Below, piece by piece: positions 1,550 through 14,903 of a stretch of DNA of 56,831 nt (position 1 is its first letter; each line of letters starts with the position of its first letter). The DNA is taken from positions 1 through 56,831 of the forward strand of contig CANJIM010000008.1 in NCBI GenBank assembly GCA_947474495.1, in the 5' to 3' direction. A program made the position numbers and the translations under genes. The stretch is from Rhodospirillaceae bacterium. GTDB taxonomy: Bacteria; Pseudomonadota; Alphaproteobacteria; SMXQ01. The notes beneath the pieces are model-generated. The model saw nothing but the letters and a program-made list of their open reading frames with translations, ran no database searches and was not told where the DNA came from.

Positions 1550-2788
1550 CTAGCCGGAGATCGCCAAATCATGCGGCCGCGTACCCAGACGGCGGCCTCC
1601 GCGTGGCGTCACCACCACGGTATCGCCCCATGTGCAGATTGAACTGCCGTCCGCCGTGCTGACGGACGGCTTGAAGGTGAACGTCATGTTTTCCTTCAAT
1701 TCATAGGTTAGGTGACGCGGATCACGCGCGGCGCTGGTGATGATCGGGCCATCGTCGCCCGCTCCCTTGCCGTGCATGGTGAGACGCGCCTTGGCACCGG
1801 CCGCCGGACCGCTCTTTGGCATGGCCGCCGCCACGGCACTGTCAGCGATCTGCGACAGCTGGCCGAGCGTGCTTCCTGGCTTGGTTTCGGCGAGAACCTG
1901 ATTAAACACGTCGCGTTGTATTTTGATCAGTTCGACATGGATCGGATTGGCTTCTTCGACGAACACGGGTTGCACGCCCTGAGCCTGGTAGCCGATCCAG
2001 CATGCTTCGAGTTCGTTGATGATCAGGTCGCCGCGCTCCAGCAGCCGGAAAGTCGGACGCGTCAACGTGCGCACCACGTTTGGTCCGGAAATCCAGTTGC
2101 AATGGATCGGCGCTTCCGAGCCATTCTTGAGCAAACCATATTGGGTCGCGGCCCAGACTTCCCAATCGACGGCGCCTGAACGCGCCGCGGCGATCTCGGC
2201 TTCGTAACCCTTTTCAATAATTTGCACCGCCTTGGTCAGGCAGGCGACTTCCTCTTCACTCTTGACGTCGCGCACCGTCATCAGGATATCGGTGGCATCG
2301 ATCAACTCGCTCTCTGGAAAAGCGTCGCGAATCCGCTGCCAGGTGCCATGGATGATCAATCCCTCAGGAGAGCGCGTGCCGCCGATCTCTCCAAGGCCAG
2401 TGATGCCGATACGCGGCTTCTTCAAACCGAGTTCTCGGATTCGCCCGACGATCTGTTTCCCGTAGTCGCGCCGCGCCTCACGGACGTCGGCCGTCCAGTT
2501 CTGCACGCGCGGCGTCCAGCGGGGTACCGCCGATGTCGCAATGGCCGTGACGTCTCCGTCCAACGGGAAAACCGCGGCAATATCGGCATCGCCGCCGCCG
2601 CCGCAATGCGTGAGGTAGCGCGCATCGGCCTGGAAATCCATTGAATGGCCGGTATTCTGCGGTGCCACGATGACGTCGATGCCTCGCGCAGCCATCAACT
2701 TGCGCACCGCTGCCCAGCGACGGTCACGTTCAGCCAGTGAAAAGCGCGGATAGGGATATGGCTCTTGAATGATGGGCGCGTCGCTCAT
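1550..2788 (-). CDS. creatinase/M24-fold protein, paralogue A
   Basis: A 412-residue pita-bread-fold protein of the Xaa-Pro aminopeptidase/creatinase (M24B) superfamily. The N-terminal creatinase-type domain (about residues 15-170) is followed by the catalytic-fold domain (about 180-412). Aligned without gaps to the M24 metal motif, the two Asp ligands are Glu259 and Gln270, the His is kept (His339), and the two Glu ligands are Lys373 and Gly388. The metal centre of true peptidases is therefore absent, as in creatinase, so a C-N hydrolase role is more likely than peptidase. I chose the ATG at 2788 over a longer frame starting at 2953. It overlaps the stop of the upstream VOC gene by 4 nt (ATGA), which suggests translational coupling, and the alignable sequence begins there. 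Three close paralogues lie in the same cluster. Confidence 0.85.
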   Translation of the reverse strand: MSDAPIIQEPYPYPRFSLAERDRRWAAVRKLMAARGIDVIVAPQNTGHSMDFQADARYLTHCGGGGDADIAAVFPLDGDVTAIATSAVPRWTPRVQNWTADVREARRDYGKQIVGRIRELGLKKPRIGITGLGEIGGTRSPEGLIIHGTWQRIRDAFPESELIDATDILMTVRDVKSEEEVACLTKAVQIIEKGYEAEIAAARSGAVDWEVWAATQYGLLKNGSEAPIHCNWISGPNVVRTLTRPTFRLLERGDLIINELEACWIGYQAQGVQPVFVEEANPIHVELIKIQRDVFNQVLAETKPGSTLGQLSQIADSAVAAAMPKSGPAAGAKARLTMHGKGAGDDGPIITSAARDPRHLTYELKENMTFTFKPSVSTADGSSICTWGDTVVVTPRGGRRLGTRPHDLAISG

Positions 2789-3732
2789 GCCGTCTCTTTC
2801 ACACAAAGTTCGATGAAATTTCCGCAAGGATCGCGGAAATAGAGAGACGAACCGATCGGCGATCCCGAGACGTGATGCACCGGCCCCGCCACGGTCGCCC
2901 GCGTTTTGCCAAGCACTGCCACGGCGCGCTCCAACGTCGCACGGTCGGTCCAAAAGCCGATGCGCGGCGTGCCCACTGCGATACGCGGAGGAGACTCCTG
3001 CACATGGACCGGCGACAGATAAATGCCGAGGATGGATTCTCCCGTGTGCAGGAAAATCTGCATGTTCGGACGCGCAAGTCGCCGCCCCTGGCCCGGCTTG
3101 GCACCTGGAATATCGCGATAGCGCTCATCCCAGCGTCGGGTACCGGGAGCCATCTCCTCTTTGCCCTCGCCCCAGGCACGGGCACGAATATAGTCGCCGG
3201 TGTTCCAGCCGACGCGATGCTCAACCACCAACCCCAATAGATCGCAGTAGAACTCCTCAATCCACTCCATGTCCGATGCCAGAACGATCGCGTGATCGAT
3301 TGCCGCGATACCAGGTGCCGAACGCGCCGCATCAGCGATCAGTTGAATCCGATTGCCATCGGGATCGGCGAAATAGCAATTGTCCGCCTGCTCCGCCAGC
3401 CGATCCTCATGATAGCGATGCACGCCAGCCGCACCCACGCTGAGCGATTTCAGAATGCGATCAATGGCTGCCGGTGCAGCGCGATAGGCTTGATGCACGG
3501 CAGATTCCGGCAACGTCCGCGGATTGGCGGAGGGTTTCAGCACCAGGAACTGGCCTGACGGCAATAGCAGCGCCGTCTCGTCCTTCACCGGCCAGGCCGC
3601 AACCCTTGAGGCCGGAGCGCCGATCAAACCGCTGTAGAATTCGAGCGCACGCGGCAGATCGCCGACTTCAATCGTGACATGCGCGATTGAGTGAAGCGTC
3701 AGCATCATCGCTTCCGTTCTGCGGAGGTCCAT
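2785..3732 (-). CDS. two-domain VOC (glyoxalase/extradiol dioxygenase fold) protein
   Basis: A 315-residue protein made of two vicinal-oxygen-chelate modules, about residues 10-135 and 140-312. The first opens with IAHVTIEVGDL and ends DPDGNRIQLI, where Gln takes the place of the usual metal-binding Glu. The second opens with IDHAIVLASDM and ends RDPCGNFIELCV, keeping Glu. Tandem VOC modules are typical of extradiol dioxygenases such as catechol 2,3-dioxygenases, in which only the C-terminal module carries iron, and the ligand pattern here fits that. The gene starts in a TAATG overlap with the upstream VOC gene; an internal ATG at 3708 or 3705 is an alternative start. It overlaps the next gene by 4 nt. 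The substrate is unknown. Confidence 0.8.
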   Translation of the reverse strand: MDLRRTEAMMLTLHSIAHVTIEVGDLPRALEFYSGLIGAPASRVAAWPVKDETALLLPSGQFLVLKPSANPRTLPESAVHQAYRAAPAAIDRILKSLSVGAAGVHRYHEDRLAEQADNCYFADPDGNRIQLIADAARSAPGIAAIDHAIVLASDMEWIEEFYCDLLGLVVEHRVGWNTGDYIRARAWGEGKEEMAPGTRRWDERYRDIPGAKPGQGRRLARPNMQIFLHTGESILGIYLSPVHVQESPPRIAVGTPRIGFWTDRATLERAVAVLGKTRATVAGPVHHVSGSPIGSSLYFRDPCGNFIELCVKETA

Positions 3733-4208
3733 TAGCCGACTCCTCCGTGGCCGAGCGGCAGGACTTCGTTGTAGGACGCGCTCTCATCGCGGCGCCAGAC
3801 GACCTCGAGAAAATTGCCGGTGGGATCGCGAAAATAGATAGATTCGCCGAATGGTCCGGTCTCCGGATGCGTCACCGGCCCTTCCAAGGCGACCTTATGA
3901 TTGCGCAGCGATTGAAGAATCTGCGCAAACTTGTCCTTGGGAACACAGAAGGCATGCCGGATGCGATTCTCCCCACGCAATTGATCAAGCGGCGGAATAT
4001 TCATCCAGTCTTCGCTCAGCATGATGGCAAAGAGATAATCGCTGAGCATGAGAGACGTGTGGACGGAACGACCACGCAACGCATCCTGCGTTTTGAAATT
4101 CACTCGGCTATGGACAGCCGCACCAAGAACGCCGCAATAGAAGCTCTCCGCCTCCTTGAGGTCGTGGACGCAGATACCACTGTGGGACAGGCTTTCGACA
4201 TAGGCCAT
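3732..4208 (-). CDS. single-domain VOC family protein
   Basis: A 158-residue VOC module. The candidate metal ligands are a His in the first strand (SLSHSGICV), a His in the middle (IRHAFCV) and a Glu in the last strand (GNFLEVVW), so the H-H-E set is complete. Such proteins act as dimers as dioxygenases, lyases, isomerases or binding proteins. It starts 2 nt after the stop of the VOC-Rieske gene and ends in a TAATG overlap with the two-domain VOC gene, so it is clearly part of the same transcription unit. No specific reaction can be assigned. Confidence 0.8.
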   Translation of the reverse strand: MAYVESLSHSGICVHDLKEAESFYCGVLGAAVHSRVNFKTQDALRGRSVHTSLMLSDYLFAIMLSEDWMNIPPLDQLRGENRIRHAFCVPKDKFAQILQSLRNHKVALEGPVTHPETGPFGESIYFRDPTGNFLEVVWRRDESASYNEVLPLGHGGVG

Positions 4209-4210
4209 GG

Positions 4211-5056
4211 TCAGCCCTCGCTGCTTGTTGTTGCCGGAACGGCCGCCTTCACGAGCTCCAGGCCGGCCGTGCTGAATTTTGCGCCAGGTTTCGCCGGCAC
4301 CACATGGGCCGGATCATGCTTCGAGCGCGCGAAGAAACGGTTCGTGTCGACGCTGATGTTCCCAGCCTCGTCGATGTCGACCGGATGCAGCCGCATGGGA
4401 GCGCAGCCCATTCGGCCGAAATAAGTGCCGGTGCAGTCGTACTTGGCGCCATGGAACGGACAATAGAAATGCCAACTTTCCTTCTGCCATACCGTGACGC
4501 CGTTCTTATGCGTGCACCAAGCCGAGATGGCGAGATAGCCATCCTCATTGCGTGACAGGAAGAAGCGGCCCTTGCCATTGCGGACAACGTCGCCCACCGC
4601 GTGATCCGCGATATTGCCGCAGCTGACGACCCCAGCGCCCGATGGCAAAATGTCCGTCGCCTCCTCGCCGAAGGCCTGAATCTGGAAACGGTTGCCGTCC
4701 GGATCGATGATATCCATGTTGTATTCGCCAACGGCACGGAATGTCTGGCGCGGATCGATCCCCGAGGCGTATCCCGCAGCTTCCAGGCGATCTCGCGCCT
4801 GAGCGAATTGATCGATCGTCAGAAGCCATCCGTGATGAATCGAACCGCCTGACGCGGGATAGGGCGGCACTTTGGGAACTTCAACAAGCAACAAGCGCTG
4901 CCGCGTATTCATCGCCAGCAGAGCATTCGGCCGATTGTCGGCCACCATATTGTGCCCGAGAAGATCCAAACCTATGACGTCGCGATAGAATTTTTCCGAC
5001 TTATCGAGATCCGAGACCTCGACCACCATATGGCTGAATGCGATATCCTTGGACAT
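4211..5056 (-). CDS. VOC-Rieske [2Fe-2S] fusion protein
   Basis: A 281-residue protein combining an N-terminal VOC module (about 1-130) with a C-terminal Rieske iron-sulfur domain (about 140-245). The Rieske ligands are all present: Cys181-x-His183, 15 residues, then Cys199-x2-His202 (WCTHKN and FYCPFHGAKYD). In the VOC part the expected ligands are His9 (FSHMVVEV) and His74 or His75 (SIHHGW), but the third position is Gln125 (NRFQIQAF) rather than Glu. The Rieske half resembles ferredoxin-type domains that pass single electrons to oxygenases. I know of no standard family with this domain order. The start at 5056 is preferred because GGGG lies 7 nt upstream; an in-frame ATG at 5074 has no spaced ribosome site. 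Neighbours are VOC and M24-fold genes a few bases away. Confidence 0.85.
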   Translation of the reverse strand: MSKDIAFSHMVVEVSDLDKSEKFYRDVIGLDLLGHNMVADNRPNALLAMNTRQRLLLVEVPKVPPYPASGGSIHHGWLLTIDQFAQARDRLEAAGYASGIDPRQTFRAVGEYNMDIIDPDGNRFQIQAFGEEATDILPSGAGVVSCGNIADHAVGDVVRNGKGRFFLSRNEDGYLAISAWCTHKNGVTVWQKESWHFYCPFHGAKYDCTGTYFGRMGCAPMRLHPVDIDEAGNISVDTNRFFARSKHDPAHVVPAKPGAKFSTAGLELVKAAVPATTSSEG

Positions 5057-5077
5057 TCCCTTACCCCATCTCACCAG

Positions 5078-6328
5078 TTAATGCGCCGAAACGGCCAACT
5101 CGTGCGGCCGCCGGCCGAGTCGACGTCCGCCCGATGGCGTCACCACAACGGTATCGCCCCATGTGCAAATATGAGTTTTGTTCGCCGTCTGCGCGGACGG
5201 CTTCATGATGAAGGCCATGTTCTCGGTCAAGCGGGCCGCGAGCTGCTCGGGATCTCGCGCCTGACTCGTCACAATCGGACCGTCATCTCCGGCGCCGCGG
5301 CCGTGCATCGTCATGCTGACAATTGCCCCGGCTGCGGGACCGCTGGCCGGCGCGACGCGCCGCCCCGCCGCTGCCGTGGTTTCGGCCAATTCGCGAACTG
5401 TGATGCCAGGCCTCAGGCTCTCCAGCACACGATCGAAGACTTCTCGCTGCACCTTGAACAATTCCTGGTGCACTGGATCTGCAACCCCGACGAAGACAGG
5501 CTGCACCGCTTGCGAGCGATAACCTATCCAGGAGGCTTCCAACTCGTTGATAATCAGATCACCGCGCTCCAGCACGCGCCAGGACGGACGCGTCAGGGTT
5601 CGCACCGGGTTCTTGCCCGAAATCCAATTGCAATGCACCGGCATTTCCGAACCGCCGTGCATCAAGGCAGACTGGGCAGCCGCCCACACATGCCAATCTA
5701 TCGCGCCCGTGCGCGCCGCCGCGATCTCGGCAGCAATCCCCTGCTCGATTATCTCCATGGATTTTTGCAGAGCGGCCAGCTCCTCTTCGCTTTTCTGAAA
5801 GCGTATTTCCGTCAGGAGGCGGGTCGCATCGACGAGGTCCGCATCGGGAAAGGCCGCACGAATTTGGCGCCAAACTCCGTAATTTACAGTGCCTTCCGGC
5901 GTCCGCGTCCCGGCATCCACGCCGAGTCCGACAATACCGATGCGCCCTCGCTCGACCCCAAGCTCCTTCAAGCGCTCGACAATCACCTTGCCGTACCGCC
6001 GTCGCGCTTCGCGCACGTCCGTCGTCCATTCCTGAACTGTCGGCCAGCGCGGCGCGGCGGAGGTGGCAATGGCCGTCACGTCACCCGAGAGAGGAAAGAC
6101 CACGGCAATGTCGGCGTCGCCGCCACCGCCGACATGGCTCAGATAGCGCGAATTGGCCTGAAAGTCCGTCGAGTTTCCTGTGTTGTTCGGGCATACGATC
6201 ACGTCGATGCCCATTTCGCTCATCTTCTGGCGAACGCACTTCCAGCGCCGATCCCGCTCCTGCAACGAGAAGCGCGGATAGATATGAAGACCGCCAGGGC
6301 CGCAAGGCTGCAACACCGAATTGATCAT
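5078..6328 (-). CDS. creatinase/M24-fold protein, paralogue B
   Basis: A 416-residue paralogue of the other three M24-fold proteins of the cluster, with the same blocks: GGGGDADIAVVFPL, HCNWISGKN, NELEASWIGY, MHGRGAGDDGP and WGDTVVV. The residues at the five M24 metal positions are Glu262, Gln273, His342, Lys376 and Gly391, so only the His survives. It has a slightly longer N terminus (MINSVLQPCGPGG) than its paralogues. The stop lies 21 nt before the chosen start of the VOC-Rieske gene. A metal-independent C-N bond hydrolase of the creatinase type is the best guess; the substrate is unknown. Confidence 0.85.
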   Translation of the reverse strand: MINSVLQPCGPGGLHIYPRFSLQERDRRWKCVRQKMSEMGIDVIVCPNNTGNSTDFQANSRYLSHVGGGGDADIAVVFPLSGDVTAIATSAAPRWPTVQEWTTDVREARRRYGKVIVERLKELGVERGRIGIVGLGVDAGTRTPEGTVNYGVWRQIRAAFPDADLVDATRLLTEIRFQKSEEELAALQKSMEIIEQGIAAEIAAARTGAIDWHVWAAAQSALMHGGSEMPVHCNWISGKNPVRTLTRPSWRVLERGDLIINELEASWIGYRSQAVQPVFVGVADPVHQELFKVQREVFDRVLESLRPGITVRELAETTAAAGRRVAPASGPAAGAIVSMTMHGRGAGDDGPIVTSQARDPEQLAARLTENMAFIMKPSAQTANKTHICTWGDTVVVTPSGGRRLGRRPHELAVSAH

Positions 6329-6376: not shown

Positions 6377-7594
6377 TCAGCCAGCGACTGCGATTTGATG
6401 AGGGCGCTTGCCGAGGCGGCGCGCGCCGTTGGCGCCGATCAGAATCGTATCGCCCCACGTCACGATGCGCTTCTCGACGCCGGCGCCGGTTTCGGCCGAC
6501 GGCTTAAAGATGAAGACCATGTTCTCCTGCAATTCGACCGAGAGCTGCTCCGGATCGCGAGCCGTGCCGGTGATGATGGGGCCGTCGTCTCCGGCGCCGC
6601 GGCCATGCATGGTGAGTTTGCCTGTTGCGTTCGCCGCCAAGCCGCTCGCCGGGGCCGCTTTGCGCGCGATCTCCTCCGTCCATTCGCCGATTTGCCGCAC
6701 GGTGACCCCGGGTTTGAGACGCGAGAGCATCTCATCGAAGATTTCCTTTTGAACCTTGAATAGCTCTTTATGCACCGGGTGGATTTCACCCACGAACACC
6801 GGCTGCACGGCCTGCGCGCGATAGCCGATCCAGGAGGCCTCCAACTCGTTGATGATCAAATCGCCGTGCTGGAGGAGACGCATGGTCGGACGCGTGAGCG
6901 TGCGAATCGGATTCTTGCCAGAGAGCCAGTTGCAATGCAGCGGCGCTTCGGACCCATTGCGCAGCATCGCGTATTGCGCCGCAGCCCAGACTTCCCAATC
7001 CTTGACGCCAGGCCGAGCTGTCGCGATTTCAGCCGCGACGCCCATTTCGACGATTTCCATGGATTTGGTGAGGACCTGGATTTCCTCCGGACTCTTGAGA
7101 TAGCGCACCTGCGTGAGGATCGGCGTCGCGTCGACAAGCTCGGCTTTCGGAAAAGCCTCGCGAATCTGCGTCCAGAAGGCGTGCGAAATGGTGCCTTCGG
7201 GCGTGCGCGTACCGCCCCCGAGGCCGGTTAAACCGATTCGGCTGTTTTCTACGCCCAGCTCCTTCAGGCGCTCCACGACGGCCTTGCCGTAGCGTCGCCG
7301 CGCTTCGCGCACGTCCTTGGTCCATTCCTGGACCAGCGGCCAACGCGGTGCGGCCGACGTCGCAAATGCAGTGACATCGCCTTCAAGTGGAAAGACCACG
7401 GCGATATCAGCGTCACCACCACCGCCGACATGGCTGAGATAACGCGAGTTCGACTGAAAATCCGTCGAATGGCCCGTATTGTTGGGCGTGACGATGACAT
7501 CGAGATTCTCTTGCCGCATCCGCGCGCGGACCGCTCGCCAGCGACGGTCACGTTCAGCGAGGCTGAAGCGAGGATATTCATAAAGCTCGGACAT
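6377..7594 (-). CDS. creatinase/M24-fold protein, paralogue C
   Basis: A 405-residue member of the same four-member set. The N-terminal creatinase domain covers about residues 5-165 and the pita-bread domain about 175-405. Metal-ligand equivalents are Glu250, Gln261, His330, Lys364 and Gly381. The insert GAGVEKR before the WGDT motif differs from paralogues A and B. The gene lies 48 nt upstream of paralogue B and directly downstream of the ABC transporter ATPase gene, so uptake and hydrolysis are probably expressed together. Automatic annotation would probably call it Xaa-Pro peptidase, which the missing ligands argue against. Confidence 0.85.
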   Translation of the reverse strand: MSELYEYPRFSLAERDRRWRAVRARMRQENLDVIVTPNNTGHSTDFQSNSRYLSHVGGGGDADIAVVFPLEGDVTAFATSAAPRWPLVQEWTKDVREARRRYGKAVVERLKELGVENSRIGLTGLGGGTRTPEGTISHAFWTQIREAFPKAELVDATPILTQVRYLKSPEEIQVLTKSMEIVEMGVAAEIATARPGVKDWEVWAAAQYAMLRNGSEAPLHCNWLSGKNPIRTLTRPTMRLLQHGDLIINELEASWIGYRAQAVQPVFVGEIHPVHKELFKVQKEIFDEMLSRLKPGVTVRQIGEWTEEIARKAAPASGLAANATGKLTMHGRGAGDDGPIITGTARDPEQLSVELQENMVFIFKPSAETGAGVEKRIVTWGDTILIGANGARRLGKRPHQIAVAG

Positions 7595-7630: not shown

Positions 7631-8719
7631 TTAAGCTGTCAAAAGCGAGAACCGCTCGGGGGCGATATGGAGGTAGACCTCCGCACCATCCTCGAATTGA
7701 TGGAAAGGATTGACTCGTGCGCGCACTTGAAAGTCGCCGCAAGCGATAGTGCAATCAATGAATTCACCGAGAAAAATCGAGGAGATGACCCGTCCCCGCC
7801 ATTCATTCGTTTCGCAGTTGAACGAGGATGAGGAGACACGCACATTCTCCGGCCGCAGAAGGACCATCAGAGAATCTCCCTTGCTATGAGCTTTCGTGGT
7901 CAGCCCTTGGCACAGCAAGGATGTGAACGGCAGATCGACACGAACCGTATCGCCTGCATCGCCGTGGCGTAACTTAGCGGGCATGATATTGGTCAAGCCG
8001 ACGAATTGTGCGGCGAAGCGACTGGTCGGATGTAGGTAAATGTCGCGTGGGGCCCCCACCTCTACGATCTTGCCTTTTTCCATCACCGCGATGAAATCGG
8101 AAATCGACAGTGCTTCGACTTGGTCATGCGTGACGTAGAGGGATGTGATTCCGAGTTTGCGCTGGAGAGCACGAATATGGCCGCGCATCTCTTCGCGCAG
8201 TTTGGCATCCAGATTCGATAAAGGTTCATCGAATAGGAATATGCGTGGATCACTGGCGATCGCCCGCGCGAGGGCGACACGCTGCTGCTGGCCACCTGAA
8301 AGTTTTGGCGCGGGCCGATCCTCGAATCCCTCTAAATCGACCATCCGCAGAGCCTCACGGGCTTTGCTTTCGATTTGCGCGCGCGAGAGTCCCTTGCCCT
8401 TCAGAGGGTAGGCAATATTCTGCAAGACAGTCATGTGGGGCCAGATCGCGTAGGACTGGAACACCATGCCGATCTTGCGCTTGCTGGGATGGAGGGAGAT
8501 TCCCCGCGTCGATGAGAAGACCGTCTCACCGAATAAGTTTATCTCGCCCGCGTCAGGCTGCTCGAGCCCCGCGACCGAACGAAGTGAAGTCGTCTTACCG
8601 CAACCGGAGGGCCCAAGCAGGGTGAATATCTTTCCTGTCTCGACCTGAAAATCGACGCCGTCGATCGCTCTGACGTTGCCGCCTGCGTATGTCTTGGCAA
8701 GTCCTTGGACGCTAATCAT
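7631..8719 (-). CDS. ABC transporter ATP-binding protein (ferric/polyamine/phosphonate importer type)
   Basis: A 362-residue ATPase that energises import with the double permease and binding protein next to it. Visible motifs are Walker A GPSGCGKTT (about residues 35-43), signature LSGGQQQRVALARA, Walker B IFLFDEPLSNLDAKL and the switch His in YVTHDQVEALS. The region after about residue 240 is the TOBE domain typical of the PotA/FbpC/MalK subclass. The start lies 4 nt after the permease stop. The gene is surrounded by the M24-fold, VOC and permease genes of the cluster. Confidence 0.93.
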   Translation of the reverse strand: MISVQGLAKTYAGGNVRAIDGVDFQVETGKIFTLLGPSGCGKTTSLRSVAGLEQPDAGEINLFGETVFSSTRGISLHPSKRKIGMVFQSYAIWPHMTVLQNIAYPLKGKGLSRAQIESKAREALRMVDLEGFEDRPAPKLSGGQQQRVALARAIASDPRIFLFDEPLSNLDAKLREEMRGHIRALQRKLGITSLYVTHDQVEALSISDFIAVMEKGKIVEVGAPRDIYLHPTSRFAAQFVGLTNIMPAKLRHGDAGDTVRVDLPFTSLLCQGLTTKAHSKGDSLMVLLRPENVRVSSSSFNCETNEWRGRVISSIFLGEFIDCTIACGDFQVRARVNPFHQFEDGAEVYLHIAPERFSLLTA

Positions 8720-8723
8720 GTCC

Positions 8724-10484
8724 TTATTCCCCAGCTTTGATCGCGAAGCGGGCCGAAATCAGCCTCGTCAGCCCCGCAACAACGGCGATGAATATCGTGA
8801 GAATGACGCCCATCGCGCACAGCTCGGTAATTCCGCCGCTCTGATACAGACTGAAAATGAGCACCGGCAGCACTTCCGTCCCGACATGCGAAAGCAGAAT
8901 CGGAATCGAAAGAACTTTGAAGGTCAGAGTGAGAATGTAGAGCCAGCCCACCAGCAGCCCCGGCAAGATAAGCGGCACGACAATCGAAAAGAGATTGCGC
9001 AGCCAGGACGAGGAGGAAAGCTCCGCTGCCTCCTCCAATTCCTTATGCACCTGCAACATGCTGGCATGCACCACGCGCAGGCTGATCGGAATGAACTTCG
9101 TCACGAAGGCGATAATCAATATCCAGAGCGTGCCATAGACCGGAAGCGGCACGGTCAGATAGAGCCAGAGCAAGGCCAGGCTAAGCACGACGCCCGGTAA
9201 GGCGATCGGCGTGAAGGCAATGATATCGAGCATCTTACGCCCTGGAATATCGGTGCGAATGACGATCCAGGCGATGCCAACCGACAGCAGGACCGCGATG
9301 GTCGCGGCGGAGACGCCCGTAACCAGATTGTTCCAGAAGGCGCGATAGAACTCATCGAGCTCAAAGACCGCGACGTAATTGGCAAAAGTGGCCATCGAGA
9401 GCATGTGCCATGACGGCTGGGCATAAAACGGCATGAAAGATGCCCAAAGGACGATTGCCAAGGGCAGGAACACGCCGATGAACAAGACAAGCATCGTCAG
9501 GCAAAGAACGCCGTAGCGCCATGTTCCGAGATCAATCACCCGCGGCCGATAGGCCTTGCCAGTGATCGTCGCAAATTTCTCCGCGACGCGCGTCACACGC
9601 AGATACAGCAGCACCCCGATCACGGTAATCAGGAGATAAGCCGTCGAATAAGTTCCGGCGAGATTGTAATCCGTGGGCGCGCGCCGCAACGCGAGGAAGA
9701 TTTCTGTCGCGAAGACAGGTATTCCCGCCGGGATTCCGATGACGGCCGGCGCCTCGAAGGTTTCAATGCCCCTTACAAACAACAGCAGACATGTCGCCAG
9801 GATGCTCGGAAACATAATTTTCAGATTGATTTGATAGAATTGACGCAGCGGCCCCATCGACGAAATGCTCGCCGCTTCTTCCAAAGTCGGATCCATGGAG
9901 CGGAAAGCTGCCGCCATCAGCAGAAACGGCAGGGTGATGTGATCGATCCCGAAGGTCCAGACCATGCCGGCGAAGCTGTAGATATTGAAGGGCGGCTTAT
10001 CCAGGCCGAACAGACTCTCAGCGACCTTGTTGATGAGGCCAATATTGGGCGACAGCAGAAAGACCCAGGATATCGTCGTCAGGATACCGGGCACGAGAAA
10101 CGGCACGAGCACCGCGATGTAAATGACTCCTTTAAACGGCGTATTGGTTCGCTCTGTGACCCAGGCTAAATAGCAACCGATAATGAAGGAGATGATTCCG
10201 GACAATACGGCGAAGCTTACCGAGTTGAATGCCGCCCGAAAAATATCGGGAGAGCCATAGGCGCGCACATAGTTCTGCAGTGTAAAACTAGCGCCCGTAC
10301 CAGGAGGTCCGTCGGTGAGAGTGCCGTAAAGGATCATCCCTAGCGGAACAAGGGTGAGATAGACGACGACGAGCGCGATGATCGCGAGCGCACCATGACG
10401 CCACGTCAGCCGGCGCGACAGGCTCAACAAGCCTGCGCGCCGGACGATCTGTCCTCCGGTAGCTATCTCGGCAATCTGGCTCAT
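8724..10484 (-). CDS. ABC transporter permease, two fused membrane domains
   Basis: An FbpB/ThiP-like permease of 586 residues holding both membrane domains in one chain, about 12 transmembrane helices. Each half has its cytoplasmic EAA loop: LEEAASISSMGPLRQFY in the middle and LEEAAELSSSSWLRNLF near the end. Such fused permeases work as a single chain with two ATPase subunits. I chose the ATG at 10484 (MSQIAEIATGGQ); the frame stays open to 10523 and that longer start cannot be excluded. It lies between the binding-protein gene and the ATPase gene. Confidence 0.9.
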   Translation of the reverse strand: MSQIAEIATGGQIVRRAGLLSLSRRLTWRHGALAIIALVVVYLTLVPLGMILYGTLTDGPPGTGASFTLQNYVRAYGSPDIFRAAFNSVSFAVLSGIISFIIGCYLAWVTERTNTPFKGVIYIAVLVPFLVPGILTTISWVFLLSPNIGLINKVAESLFGLDKPPFNIYSFAGMVWTFGIDHITLPFLLMAAAFRSMDPTLEEAASISSMGPLRQFYQINLKIMFPSILATCLLLFVRGIETFEAPAVIGIPAGIPVFATEIFLALRRAPTDYNLAGTYSTAYLLITVIGVLLYLRVTRVAEKFATITGKAYRPRVIDLGTWRYGVLCLTMLVLFIGVFLPLAIVLWASFMPFYAQPSWHMLSMATFANYVAVFELDEFYRAFWNNLVTGVSAATIAVLLSVGIAWIVIRTDIPGRKMLDIIAFTPIALPGVVLSLALLWLYLTVPLPVYGTLWILIIAFVTKFIPISLRVVHASMLQVHKELEEAAELSSSSWLRNLFSIVVPLILPGLLVGWLYILTLTFKVLSIPILLSHVGTEVLPVLIFSLYQSGGITELCAMGVILTIFIAVVAGLTRLISARFAIKAGE

Positions 10485-10550
10485 ATAACTCTCGTCAACG
10501 CCAAGCCCATACCCGCAGAGCAAAACAAGCTTGGATGAAGAACACGGCTG

Positions 10551-11660
10551 CTATCTCTGAAAGGAACGGCGAAGGATTTTCTCGTCGAGAAGCTTCGTTG
10601 TTTCTTCGAGTGGCGCACCGCCGACGCCCATCTCGTCGAAGGCCACACGCGGATCCTGGACCGCGGCCTTCTCGCGCTCGTTCTTCACCGATGCGTTGGG
10701 ATTTGACGGTGTGCGCCCCATGGCGGCATAGACTTCCTGCCCCTCCTTTGAAAGCAGGTAGTCAAACAGCAGCGCGGCGGCATGGGGATGAGCCGCACGG
10801 CGCGAAATGGAAGTTGGCTGCAGAAGGCCCGGATTCTGGTCCAGCAACGCCCAATCCACTGGCGCGCCCTTGGTCCGCAAGTTCTCGATATCGTAGGGGT
10901 ATACGGTCACAGCGATGGGCGCTTCGCCGGCCGACAACATTTGGGACAAGGTCGTGCGACCAGTCCGAATCTGCAGATTGCCACTGGCCCCAAGCTTTTC
11001 CACATAGGCGGCCGTACGATCCTTGCCCCAGCGCGCATAAAGCACGCCAACTTCCGGCAGTGAGGATTCGTCAAACAGAATTTTGCCTTTCCATTTTGGA
11101 TCGAGCAGGTCATCCCAGCTCTTAGGCAAATCTTCGCTCTTCACCAGCTTGGTGTTGTAACCCATGACGCGAACGAAGGTGAATACGCTGGCCCATTTGT
11201 CTCCCTGCATAGCCGCAGGTATCTCCGACTTGGTCGGCGACTTGTAAGAGGCGAATACATTGGGCGGATACATGTCGTAGGTTTCCGTCGATGTTTTCGC
11301 CAGATCGAACAAGTGCCTGTTCGCCCGAGCCTCCGATGTGATGCGGTCGGCGATCTCACGGCTTTTGCCGCGAATAAACTCGGTCTTCACCCCAGGATAT
11401 TTCTTAGAGAAGGCCCGGAGGATCTGCTGAGTCGGTTGCGGGCCATCGGTCGTGTACCAGACAACCGAGCCCTCCTTTTTAGCACCCTCGAACAGCTTGG
11501 CCTCGCGCTGGGCGGCGGAGAGCGATTCCAGGCTAGCGAAGAAAGTCTCCGCATCCGCGACCGCCTGGGCCGTCACCGGCCGCGAGACGACCGTAAGCGC
11601 GGTCATGAGGGCCAGTCCGCAAGCCGCGAACTTCAGTCTCACTGAAAATATGCTCGTCAT
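10551..11660 (-). CDS. ABC transporter periplasmic solute-binding protein (ferric-type family)
   Basis: A 369-residue binding protein of normal family length with a signal peptide (residues 1-32, ending VTAQA). Core segments include GSVVWYTTDGP, SWDDLLDPKWKGK and HPHAAALLFDYLLSKEGQ. It sits directly upstream of the permease and ATPase genes and is the obvious partner of that transporter. Despite the family name, many members bind organic acids, thiamine, phosphonates or polyamines, so the ligand need not be iron. The catabolic neighbours favour an organic substrate (inference). Confidence 0.9.
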   Translation of the reverse strand: MTSIFSVRLKFAACGLALMTALTVVSRPVTAQAVADAETFFASLESLSAAQREAKLFEGAKKEGSVVWYTTDGPQPTQQILRAFSKKYPGVKTEFIRGKSREIADRITSEARANRHLFDLAKTSTETYDMYPPNVFASYKSPTKSEIPAAMQGDKWASVFTFVRVMGYNTKLVKSEDLPKSWDDLLDPKWKGKILFDESSLPEVGVLYARWGKDRTAAYVEKLGASGNLQIRTGRTTLSQMLSAGEAPIAVTVYPYDIENLRTKGAPVDWALLDQNPGLLQPTSISRRAAHPHAAALLFDYLLSKEGQEVYAAMGRTPSNPNASVKNEREKAAVQDPRVAFDEMGVGGAPLEETTKLLDEKILRRSFQR

Positions 11661-12388: not shown

Positions 12389-12985
12389 CTAAGCCCTCTT
12401 ACGGCGCGCGCGCATGCGCTCGGTCGACTCGGCAAGCAACCGGTCGGCCTCGGCCGCAAGCGAAGCAGGCGGCCAAGCCGTCTCGTGCACCGTGAGTTTT
12501 TTGTCGTAAGGACCGGCCGGCAGACTCGCGTGGTCCGGATAGTGCGAGCAGTGCAGTTCCAGATGGTTTCCGTCGGGATCGTTGAAATAGATCTCCGCGC
12601 CGCCGGTCCCGGCTCGCGTCATAGGCCCGACGAAGGGCACGCCCCATTTTTTCAGATGGGCCGCCCACTGCATCAACGTCTCGGCCGGCACATCGAAAGC
12701 ATGATGCGGATGCGATTGATCCCAATTGGGCTGGCCATAATCTTGTTCGAAGAGATCGATCTCGAGACCGGAACAAAGACGCACGCCCACCTGCAGCGAC
12801 CGCGCCAGGCCCTGCTTCACGCGGTCAGGCGCCGATTCATGGTGCATTTCCCCACCGAGCACCGCCACGTAGAAACGCGCCGCCTTGTAGCGATCGCGTA
12901 CCGGAACCGTCGTATGGTTCAACGCCCGGATATGCAGATTGGCATCCGGATTGAAATCCATGTCACTGGTCGTCGCCTTATTCAT
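12389..12985 (-). CDS. VOC family protein (extradiol dioxygenase-like)
   Basis: A 198-residue VOC protein with the complete metal triad His-His-Glu: ALNHTTVPVRD in the first strand, HPHHAFDVPA in the middle and GNHLELHC in the last strand. A charged, probably helical tail of about 50 residues (Arg/Glu-rich, ending RMRARRKRA) follows the fold. It lies between paralogue D of the M24-fold set and the flavin reductase gene, with only short gaps. A ring-cleaving dioxygenase or an isomerase/lyase is possible; nothing in the sequence fixes the substrate. Confidence 0.82.
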   Translation of the reverse strand: MNKATTSDMDFNPDANLHIRALNHTTVPVRDRYKAARFYVAVLGGEMHHESAPDRVKQGLARSLQVGVRLCSGLEIDLFEQDYGQPNWDQSHPHHAFDVPAETLMQWAAHLKKWGVPFVGPMTRAGTGGAEIYFNDPDGNHLELHCSHYPDHASLPAGPYDKKLTVHETAWPPASLAAEADRLLAESTERMRARRKRA

Positions 12986-13020: not shown

Positions 13021-14241
13021 TTAAGCGGCCGAAATGGCGAGATCATGCTTCAATGTCCCCAATCGAACGCCGCCCTGCGGCGTCACCACAGCAGTGTCGC
13101 CCCAGCGGCAAATGGTCTTTTCTCCGCCAACCAACGTCTCGACCGACGGCTTGAGAATGCAGACCATGTTCTCTTGCAGCGGCACGTTCAGATCCGGCGA
13201 TTTGAATGGATCATTGACCATGATGGGACCATCGTCCCCGGCGCCACGGCCGTGGAGCGTCATGCGGCCCTCCGCCGTGGCCGCAGGCCCCTTGCTAGGC
13301 CGTGCCTTCTCGCAGCTTTTTACCGTCGTCTCGGCGATCTCTCGGAGAGACACGCCGGGACGGAAGCGCTCGAGCACGGCATTAAAGACCTCGCGCTGGA
13401 CCTTCATCAATTCGACATGTCGCGGATCAGCAACGCTGACGAACACAGGCTGTACGACCTGAGAGCGATAGCCGATCCAGGATGCTTCAAGTTCATTGAT
13501 GATGAGATCGCCCTTCTCAAGGGGCCGCATGGTCGGACGCGTCAGGGTCCGGATGGGGTTTTTACCGGATAGCCAATTGACGTGGACCGGCAACTCAGAG
13601 CCGTGATGCGTCATGCCGGCGATGGCTGCCGACCATACTTGCCAGTCGAGAACCCCTGGACGTGCCGCGGCGATTTTTGCCTCCACGCCCTTTTCGATGA
13701 TCTGGACCGACTTGCGCAGCACACCGACTTCCTCTTCGCTTTTAACGAAGCGGACGCTGCGCATGAGGTCCGTGGCATCGACAAAGTCAGCTTTGGGAAA
13801 GGCACCGGCAAGGGACTGCCAGAACCCATACAGCATGGTGCCTTCCGGCGTGCGTGTGCCCTTCCCCATTCCGGCAATGCCGATGCGGCCGTTATCGACC
13901 TTGAGCTCCTTTAGCCGCTCGACAACCGCCGTGCCATATGAGCGGTTGACCTCGCGGACATCACTCGTCCAATCCTGCACGCAAGGCCAGCGTGCGGCGG
14001 CCGAAGTGGCAAATGCCGTCACCTCGCCATCAAGCGGAAAGACTGCAGCAATATCGGAATCTCCGCCGCCGCCGACATGCGTCAGATAGCGGACGTTGGC
14101 CTGGAAATCCATGGAATGGCCAGTATTGTTTGGCGCGACAATGACGTCGATCCCATCGGCTCGCATCCGCGCGCGCACAGCAGCCCAGCGTCGGTCCCGC
14201 TCGGCCAACGAAAAGCGCGGATACGGCAGTAAGTCCGCCAT
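13021..14241 (-). CDS. creatinase/M24-fold protein, paralogue D
   Basis: A 406-residue fourth paralogue and the first intact gene of the leftward unit. Metal-ligand equivalents are Glu250, Gln261, His330, Lys364 and Gly381, as in the other three. It differs where the others have HCNW: here the block reads HVNWLSGKN, so the Cys is not essential to the set. A purine-rich AGGGAGAGAGA precedes the ATG. Its separation from paralogues B and C by the transporter genes shows that the copies are not a simple recent tandem array. Confidence 0.85.
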   Translation of the reverse strand: MADLLPYPRFSLAERDRRWAAVRARMRADGIDVIVAPNNTGHSMDFQANVRYLTHVGGGGDSDIAAVFPLDGEVTAFATSAAARWPCVQDWTSDVREVNRSYGTAVVERLKELKVDNGRIGIAGMGKGTRTPEGTMLYGFWQSLAGAFPKADFVDATDLMRSVRFVKSEEEVGVLRKSVQIIEKGVEAKIAAARPGVLDWQVWSAAIAGMTHHGSELPVHVNWLSGKNPIRTLTRPTMRPLEKGDLIINELEASWIGYRSQVVQPVFVSVADPRHVELMKVQREVFNAVLERFRPGVSLREIAETTVKSCEKARPSKGPAATAEGRMTLHGRGAGDDGPIMVNDPFKSPDLNVPLQENMVCILKPSVETLVGGEKTICRWGDTAVVTPQGGVRLGTLKHDLAISAA

Positions 14242-14407
14242 CTGTCTCTCTCCCTGTCGTCGTCTTATTCTTTTTATTTATGTCGTCGTCGTGTCGGTAC
14301 CGCACGCTTTGGTGCCTACAGAATGAAGCTTGCCGCCCAGAGTGCCCCCAGTTCTTCCGATGAAAAAACACGACGCGTCTTGATCTTGAGATCGCAGCTG
14401 ATGTTGC

Positions 14408-14797
14408 TCAGAACATAACGCCACGCCCCGACGTAGGTAGAACTGCGTTGGGAACGGCGGAAACGGTGGCAAACGAAATTTGCGGAGACGTGAACCGAAT
14501 CGCGTTACCGATACGCTCGCGGCAGACGACCGAACCACGATGCCGGCAGGTATTGAAGAAGCAGCGAACATCGCCAGCTACCGTGCGGCAGAAAATGACA
14601 GCCCGGCGCGCGACGATCCGCGTCACAAAATCGCCGAGACGCGTGATTTCCGACGCATGCCCGATATAAGTCCGGCACTTGGCAAAGATGCCCGCGCGCT
14701 GCAAGTGGCTCACAGCTTCAGACACACGCACGTCCAGGCTGAGCCGGGACATCTCCCGCTCGCCATCATCGAAAATGTACGGACGGGCCTCGGCCAT
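14408..14797 (-). pseudogene. truncated Rieske non-heme iron oxygenase alpha subunit
   Basis: A 129-codon frame whose first 95 or so residues match the start of ring-hydroxylating oxygenase large subunits: CRTYIGHASEI, a glycine-aspartate-rich turn, then the first half of the Rieske motif, NTCRHRGSVVCRERIGN. The second half should read FTCPYHGW, but here it is FTSPQISF. The second Cys is Ser, the following His is missing, and the remaining 30 residues are unrelated. The whole catalytic domain (about 300 residues) is absent, and I found no trace of it in the other frames between here and the next gene. It is the first gene after the promoter/operator region, so it probably headed the operon before it decayed. 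Confidence 0.75.
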
Positions 14798-14903
14798 ATT
14801 CGGGAATGCATCCTCAGAGGTAGCGGATAACTAACCGTGCGAAACAGGGCCTGAGCTTATTTCCAAAGAGCGCTTTTATTGAACAGGAATTTATATTTTC
14901 AAT

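Follow-up and report, generated by a model that had tools for sequence, protein, structure and literature searches.

A VOC–Rieske fusion protein as a candidate component of a two-component oxygenase in an order of Alphaproteobacteria

Rieske oxygenases are a major route of attack on aromatic rings, and in those described the Rieske cluster is, to our knowledge, wired to one catalytic fold. The VOC fold is the fold of extradiol dioxygenases. Here, we describe a protein of a Rhodospirillaceae bacterium in which a VOC (glyoxalase-fold) domain and a complete Rieske domain are joined in a single chain, and a genome search that recovered 18 full-length copies of this fusion in 8 of the 11 genomes of the order. 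Every copy is accompanied by a separate single-domain VOC protein, VOC1, and we tentatively propose that the two act together as an oxygenase.

The window, by which we mean the whole 56,831-nucleotide stretch of DNA that was analysed, carries the fusion gene at 4211–5056 on the minus strand, the strand of all window features given below. The reading frame is uninterrupted, extending over 4211–5074 if counted from an upstream GTG, although homologues favour the ATG at 5056 as the start, and it encodes 281 amino acids beginning MSKDIAFSH. Pfam matches Glyoxalase (PF00903) to residues 7–126 (4679–5038, E 7.3e-13) and Rieske (PF00355) to residues 162–212 (E 2.1e-6, exceeding the curated cut-off) within a Rieske domain of about residues 143–238 (4343–4630), the two domains being joined in frame. 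No further Pfam family reaches its cut-off in the fusion. The C-terminal catalytic domain with 2-His-1-carboxylate iron that marks the alpha subunit of ring-hydroxylating oxygenases (RHOs) is absent, and the fusion is therefore not a member of the RHO family but a new architecture made from two known domain families.

An AlphaFold2 model built from the 18 sequences (mean pLDDT 83.5, pTM 0.68) contains both folds. By Foldseek, the Rieske protein 9rk4 matches the model with a TM by target of 0.79 and FosA with a TM by target of 0.63 (E 5e-7), the latter agreeing with the Pfam match in placing the protein in the VOC superfamily; the antibiotic-binding VOC protein TnmS1 is also among the fold matches. 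No single PDB chain among the matches listed covers both parts. The domain organization read from the sequence in a preliminary description, a VOC domain fused to a complete Rieske domain, is thus borne out by the reading frame, Pfam, AlphaFold2 and Foldseek. The same description knew of no enzyme with this architecture, and we likewise found no VOC–Rieske chain, and no characterized copy, in the PDB, plasmid records or the part of the literature that was searchable. The fusion is apparently undescribed, and uncharacterized chains of this kind may exist outside the searched data.

An assembly join between two genes, which the preliminary description had named as one of two findings that would undo its reading (the other being a characterized copy elsewhere), or a chance open reading frame, is ruled out by the 18 homologous fusions in eight independent genomes and by selection on both halves. 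The other copies are 42–70% identical to the copy in the window, and the genome of the window holds three (contigs 8, 50 and 34). Purifying selection acts on both halves: in close pairs dN/dS is 0.09–0.19 for the VOC half and 0.10–0.20 for the Rieske half, and in most of these pairs the linker exceeds both. Between the halves, the distance matrices show a correlation of r 0.91, a value reached by 0 of 5,000 permutations. Selection on both halves together with the correlated matrices indicates that the fusion is old and has been kept as one unit, which is consistent with a single origin. The Rieske half bears a weak similarity to the stand-alone Rieske ferredoxins encoded in the same genomes, and we therefore reject a recent derivation from them. 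No fusion was found outside the order among the genomes sampled from the class (n = 385) and the phylum (n = 398; the samples may overlap), nor in a plasmid search. A scan of 84,980 species genomes for exact short peptides, which is insensitive to diverged copies, returned three close loci only.

The putative metal ligands of the VOC half are H9 (5030–5032), H74 (4835–4837) and Q125 (4682–4684), all invariant in the 18 fusions, including copies as diverged as 42% identity. H9 and H74 align with the His positions of FosA (1npb) and Q125 with its Glu, the three residues that bind the metal in FosA; this alignment confirms as Q125 the Gln previously noted at the third metal position. Compared with FosA-type and other single-domain VOC metalloproteins (1npb, 1lqk and the L-DOPA dioxygenase 6on1), the fusion has the same fold and two conserved His, but Gln in place of Glu in 18 of 18 copies and an attached Rieske domain. 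We compared triads among the VOC homologues in the fetched loci, in which several triads were not resolvable. All 18 fusions are H-H-Q. VOC2, a two-domain VOC protein of the same loci, has H-H-Q or x-H-Q in its N-terminal domain, whereas the remaining homologues with a resolved triad are H-H-E (n = 9) or H-D-E (n = 1). The unfused relatives in G002 and G006, which lie in unrelated surroundings, carry H-H-E. The Gln thus belongs to the gene block as a whole instead of being an isolated mutation. Invariant Arg residues of the fusions include R90, R103, R107 and R123, which would suit an anionic substrate.

In the Rieske half, the cluster ligands C181, H183, C199 and H202 are invariant in 18 of 18 fusions and retain the spacing originally reported (C-x-H, 15 residues, C-x2-H), and together with the fold of the model they identify a Rieske protein. 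Both the fold and the four ligands at their usual spacing are common to Kuste4569 of Kuenenia (9rk4) and to dioxygenase ferredoxins such as CarAc (1vck), although in the fusion the Rieske domain sits behind a VOC domain, unlike in CarAc. Disulphide cysteines and a Ser hydrogen-bond donor raise the potential in bc1-type Rieske proteins (PMC12954380). Neither feature occurs in any of the 18 copies, in which Ala204 occupies the position of the Ser of high-potential Rieske proteins; this sets the fusion apart from the bc1/b6f type and from Kuste4569. We infer a cluster of low potential, as in dioxygenase ferredoxins.

VOC1 (3732–4208, 158 amino acids, with H9, H85 and E135) adjoins the fusion directly downstream in every case, giving 18 fusions and 18 VOC1 in the same eight genomes. 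It is absent from the other three genomes of the order and from 287 further genomes of the class. All aligned copies have H9 and E135, and H85 is missing from a single one (G000:C34). Such strict one-to-one pairing with a His-His-Glu protein argues no less for a system of two components than for an enzyme acting by itself.

VOC2 (2785–3708, 307 amino acids) is also downstream in 16 of the 18 fusion loci and is missing from a single locus in G005 and another in G008. Its invariant residues are H72, Q122, H139 and E300, with R249 replacing the second His. The VOC2 model has MhqO (3oaj) and PcpA (4huz) among its best fold matches (TM 0.62–0.64), compared with a TM of about 0.34 and an rmsd of about 20 against C23O or HPCD. 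VOC2 therefore differs from type I extradiol dioxygenases in module pairing and in the C-terminal His-His-Glu set, whose second His is Arg249. It has the two-domain fold of the PcpA/MhqO-type hydroquinone dioxygenases, but with Arg249 at an expected ligand His and with H72, Q122 and H139 as its own invariant set. In an MhqO/PcpA-like pairing, H139, H72 and Q122 might come together as a single H-H-Q site; Arg249 lies together with Glu300 in the other.

The remaining gene run of the window includes four paralogous proteins of the M24/creatinase fold, in each of which other residues take the place of the canonical metal ligands: M24a (1550–2794), which overlaps the end of VOC2, M24b (5078–6328), 21 bases upstream of the fusion gene, M24c (6377–7594) and M24d (13021–14241). 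In fusion loci an M24 protein is usually the next gene after the VOC genes, and at E 1e-60 the M24 family is confined within the order to the same eight genomes as the fusion and absent from the other sampled genomes of the class. Aligned to the prolidase 1pv9, the M24 protein lacks the metallopeptidase ligands D, D, H, E and E, having E262 for the first D, Q273 for the second and replacements of the His and both Glu; the creatinase 1chm also matches. Given these replacements, the M24 proteins are probably non-metal hydrolases like creatinase, or not hydrolases at all. The same run encodes an ABC importer (7631–11660), with an ATPase (7631–8719) and a permease (8724–10523) read from the sequence and a solute-binding protein (10551–11660) recognized by Pfam, a second solute-binding protein at its downstream end (125–1483), a flavin reductase-like protein (PF01613; 11751–12383) and a further single-domain VOC protein, VOC3 (12389–12985). 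At 14319–14815 lies an RHO remnant composed of an N-terminal part of alpha (14489–14815) and a C-terminal part of beta (14319–14495). Its alpha residues 36–144 (58% identical to the protein of G000:C50) run directly into beta residues 153–212 (65%), an internal deletion having removed most of both genes.

Individual genomes of the order carry as many as three copies of the gene block, and ABC importers with solute-binding proteins flank the fusion blocks. At two loci, G000:C50 and G010:C370, the genes immediately upstream of the fusion are intact and encode the alpha and beta subunits of a benzoate-dioxygenase-like RHO. Neighbours seen in single clusters are a gentisate 1,2-dioxygenase (456 bits, exceeding the cut-off), a muconate-cycloisomerase-like protein, a LigXa-like Rieske oxygenase, UbiD decarboxylases, Amidohydro_2 proteins and cupins. 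In several clusters these gene assignments indicate aromatic-acid catabolism as the common theme. A haem-oxygenase-like/TENA-type putative iron redox protein is encoded near two of the blocks (L029 14433–15182, in G007:C20). No dedicated Rieske reductase gene was recognized beside the fusion clusters. Genomes of the order have 7 to 33 Rieske-domain matches each; three of them (G000, G008 and G010), with sizes of 3.0 to 4.1 Mb, reach 30 to 33, which shows that oxygenase genes have expanded in the order.

We suggest that the fusion supplies the redox half of an oxygenase with two components built on the VOC fold, and that this oxygenase probably works in aromatic-acid catabolism. FosA-type VOC proteins pair with themselves by swapping modules and form their metal sites as homodimers. 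By analogy of fold, the VOC half of the fusion would pair with VOC1, or with itself, and metal sites would arise at the common interface. The low-potential Rieske cluster would take electrons from a cellular reductase and pass them to a mononuclear metal, probably iron, in the fusion/VOC1 assembly, where they would either drive O2 activation or return inactive Fe(III) to Fe(II). The idea resembles that of XylT-type ferredoxins, which re-reduce catechol 2,3-dioxygenase. XylT is likewise a dedicated [2Fe-2S] protein serving a VOC-fold dioxygenase encoded alongside, but it is a separate plant-type ferredoxin, whereas the fusion joins a Rieske domain to the VOC domain. In RHOs, too, a Rieske cluster and a mononuclear metal (presumed in the fusion) share one chain, but the fusion has a VOC domain instead of the RHO catalytic domain. 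The identity of the metal, the heteromer, the direction of electron flow and the redox function are what we infer for the fusion/VOC1 system.

An oxygenase of VOC–Rieske and VOC1, with the Rieske cluster feeding a VOC-bound metal for catalysis or keeping its iron ferrous, is the reading that we favour, at somewhat less than even confidence, because VOC1 is constant, the VOC ligands are kept and the Rieske cluster is present. Against it, Gln is a weak metal ligand, so that the site may hold a metal different from iron or none at all, one VOC1 (G000:C34) is without H85, and the genes nearby include no recognized Rieske reductase. The main rival, which we regard as rather unlikely, is that the Rieske half acts as ferredoxin to a conventional RHO, with the VOC half only docking it or binding substrate or product. 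It draws on the intact alpha and beta genes upstream of the two copies named above, the deleted RHO remnant in the window, the resemblance of the Rieske part to the low-potential type and the many Rieske-domain matches per genome. However, intact RHO genes directly adjoin only 2 of the 18 fusions, which weakens the possibility, raised in the preliminary description, that the Rieske part serves a partner oxygenase, and most copies, those of G003, G004, G005 and G007 among them, lack an immediately neighbouring RHO. Moreover, the nearest RHO in the window is broken yet the fusion is intact, ordinary stand-alone Rieske ferredoxins are present in the genomes examined, and the VOC ligands are invariant although mere docking would not need them.

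We consider it improbable that the fusion is instead a self-contained homodimer in which Rieske electrons reach an H-H-Q iron of the same protein. Such an enzyme, close to the self-contained oxygenase suggested in the preliminary description, would reproduce Rieske oxygenase chemistry convergently on another fold. One chain carries both sites, complete and without variation, both folds are present in the model and FosA-like VOC homodimers form such sites, but this leaves the constant, separate VOC1 unexplained, and Gln for a carboxylate is unusual in O2-activating non-haem iron. We give little credence to a non-catalytic VOC half that binds an aromatic substrate or product, with the Rieske domain sensing redox state or carrying electrons in a general way. 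VOC proteins can be ligand-binding helpers of an oxygenase, as with DnrV, which binds doxorubicin and frees DoxA from product inhibition (PMC12979805), and antibiotic-binding TnmS1 is among the fold matches; yet His, His and Gln are invariant in 18 diverged copies, more than would be expected without a metal.

A bolder proposal, and a doubtful one at present, is that the fusion, with VOC1 or by itself, belongs to a separate, new class of oxygenases that depend on a Rieske cluster. A 2-His-1-Gln VOC site would stand in for the RHO catalytic domain, and the coupling of a Rieske cluster to a mononuclear iron would have evolved independently. If true, a Rieske cluster wired to the VOC fold would mean that the same electron-delivery logic evolved twice. 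The system also offers a compact means to ask what role a neutral Gln ligand plays at a non-haem metal. Given as many as three copies of the block in a genome, alongside up to about 30 Rieske-domain genes, its substrate may matter ecologically to this order of alphaproteobacteria.
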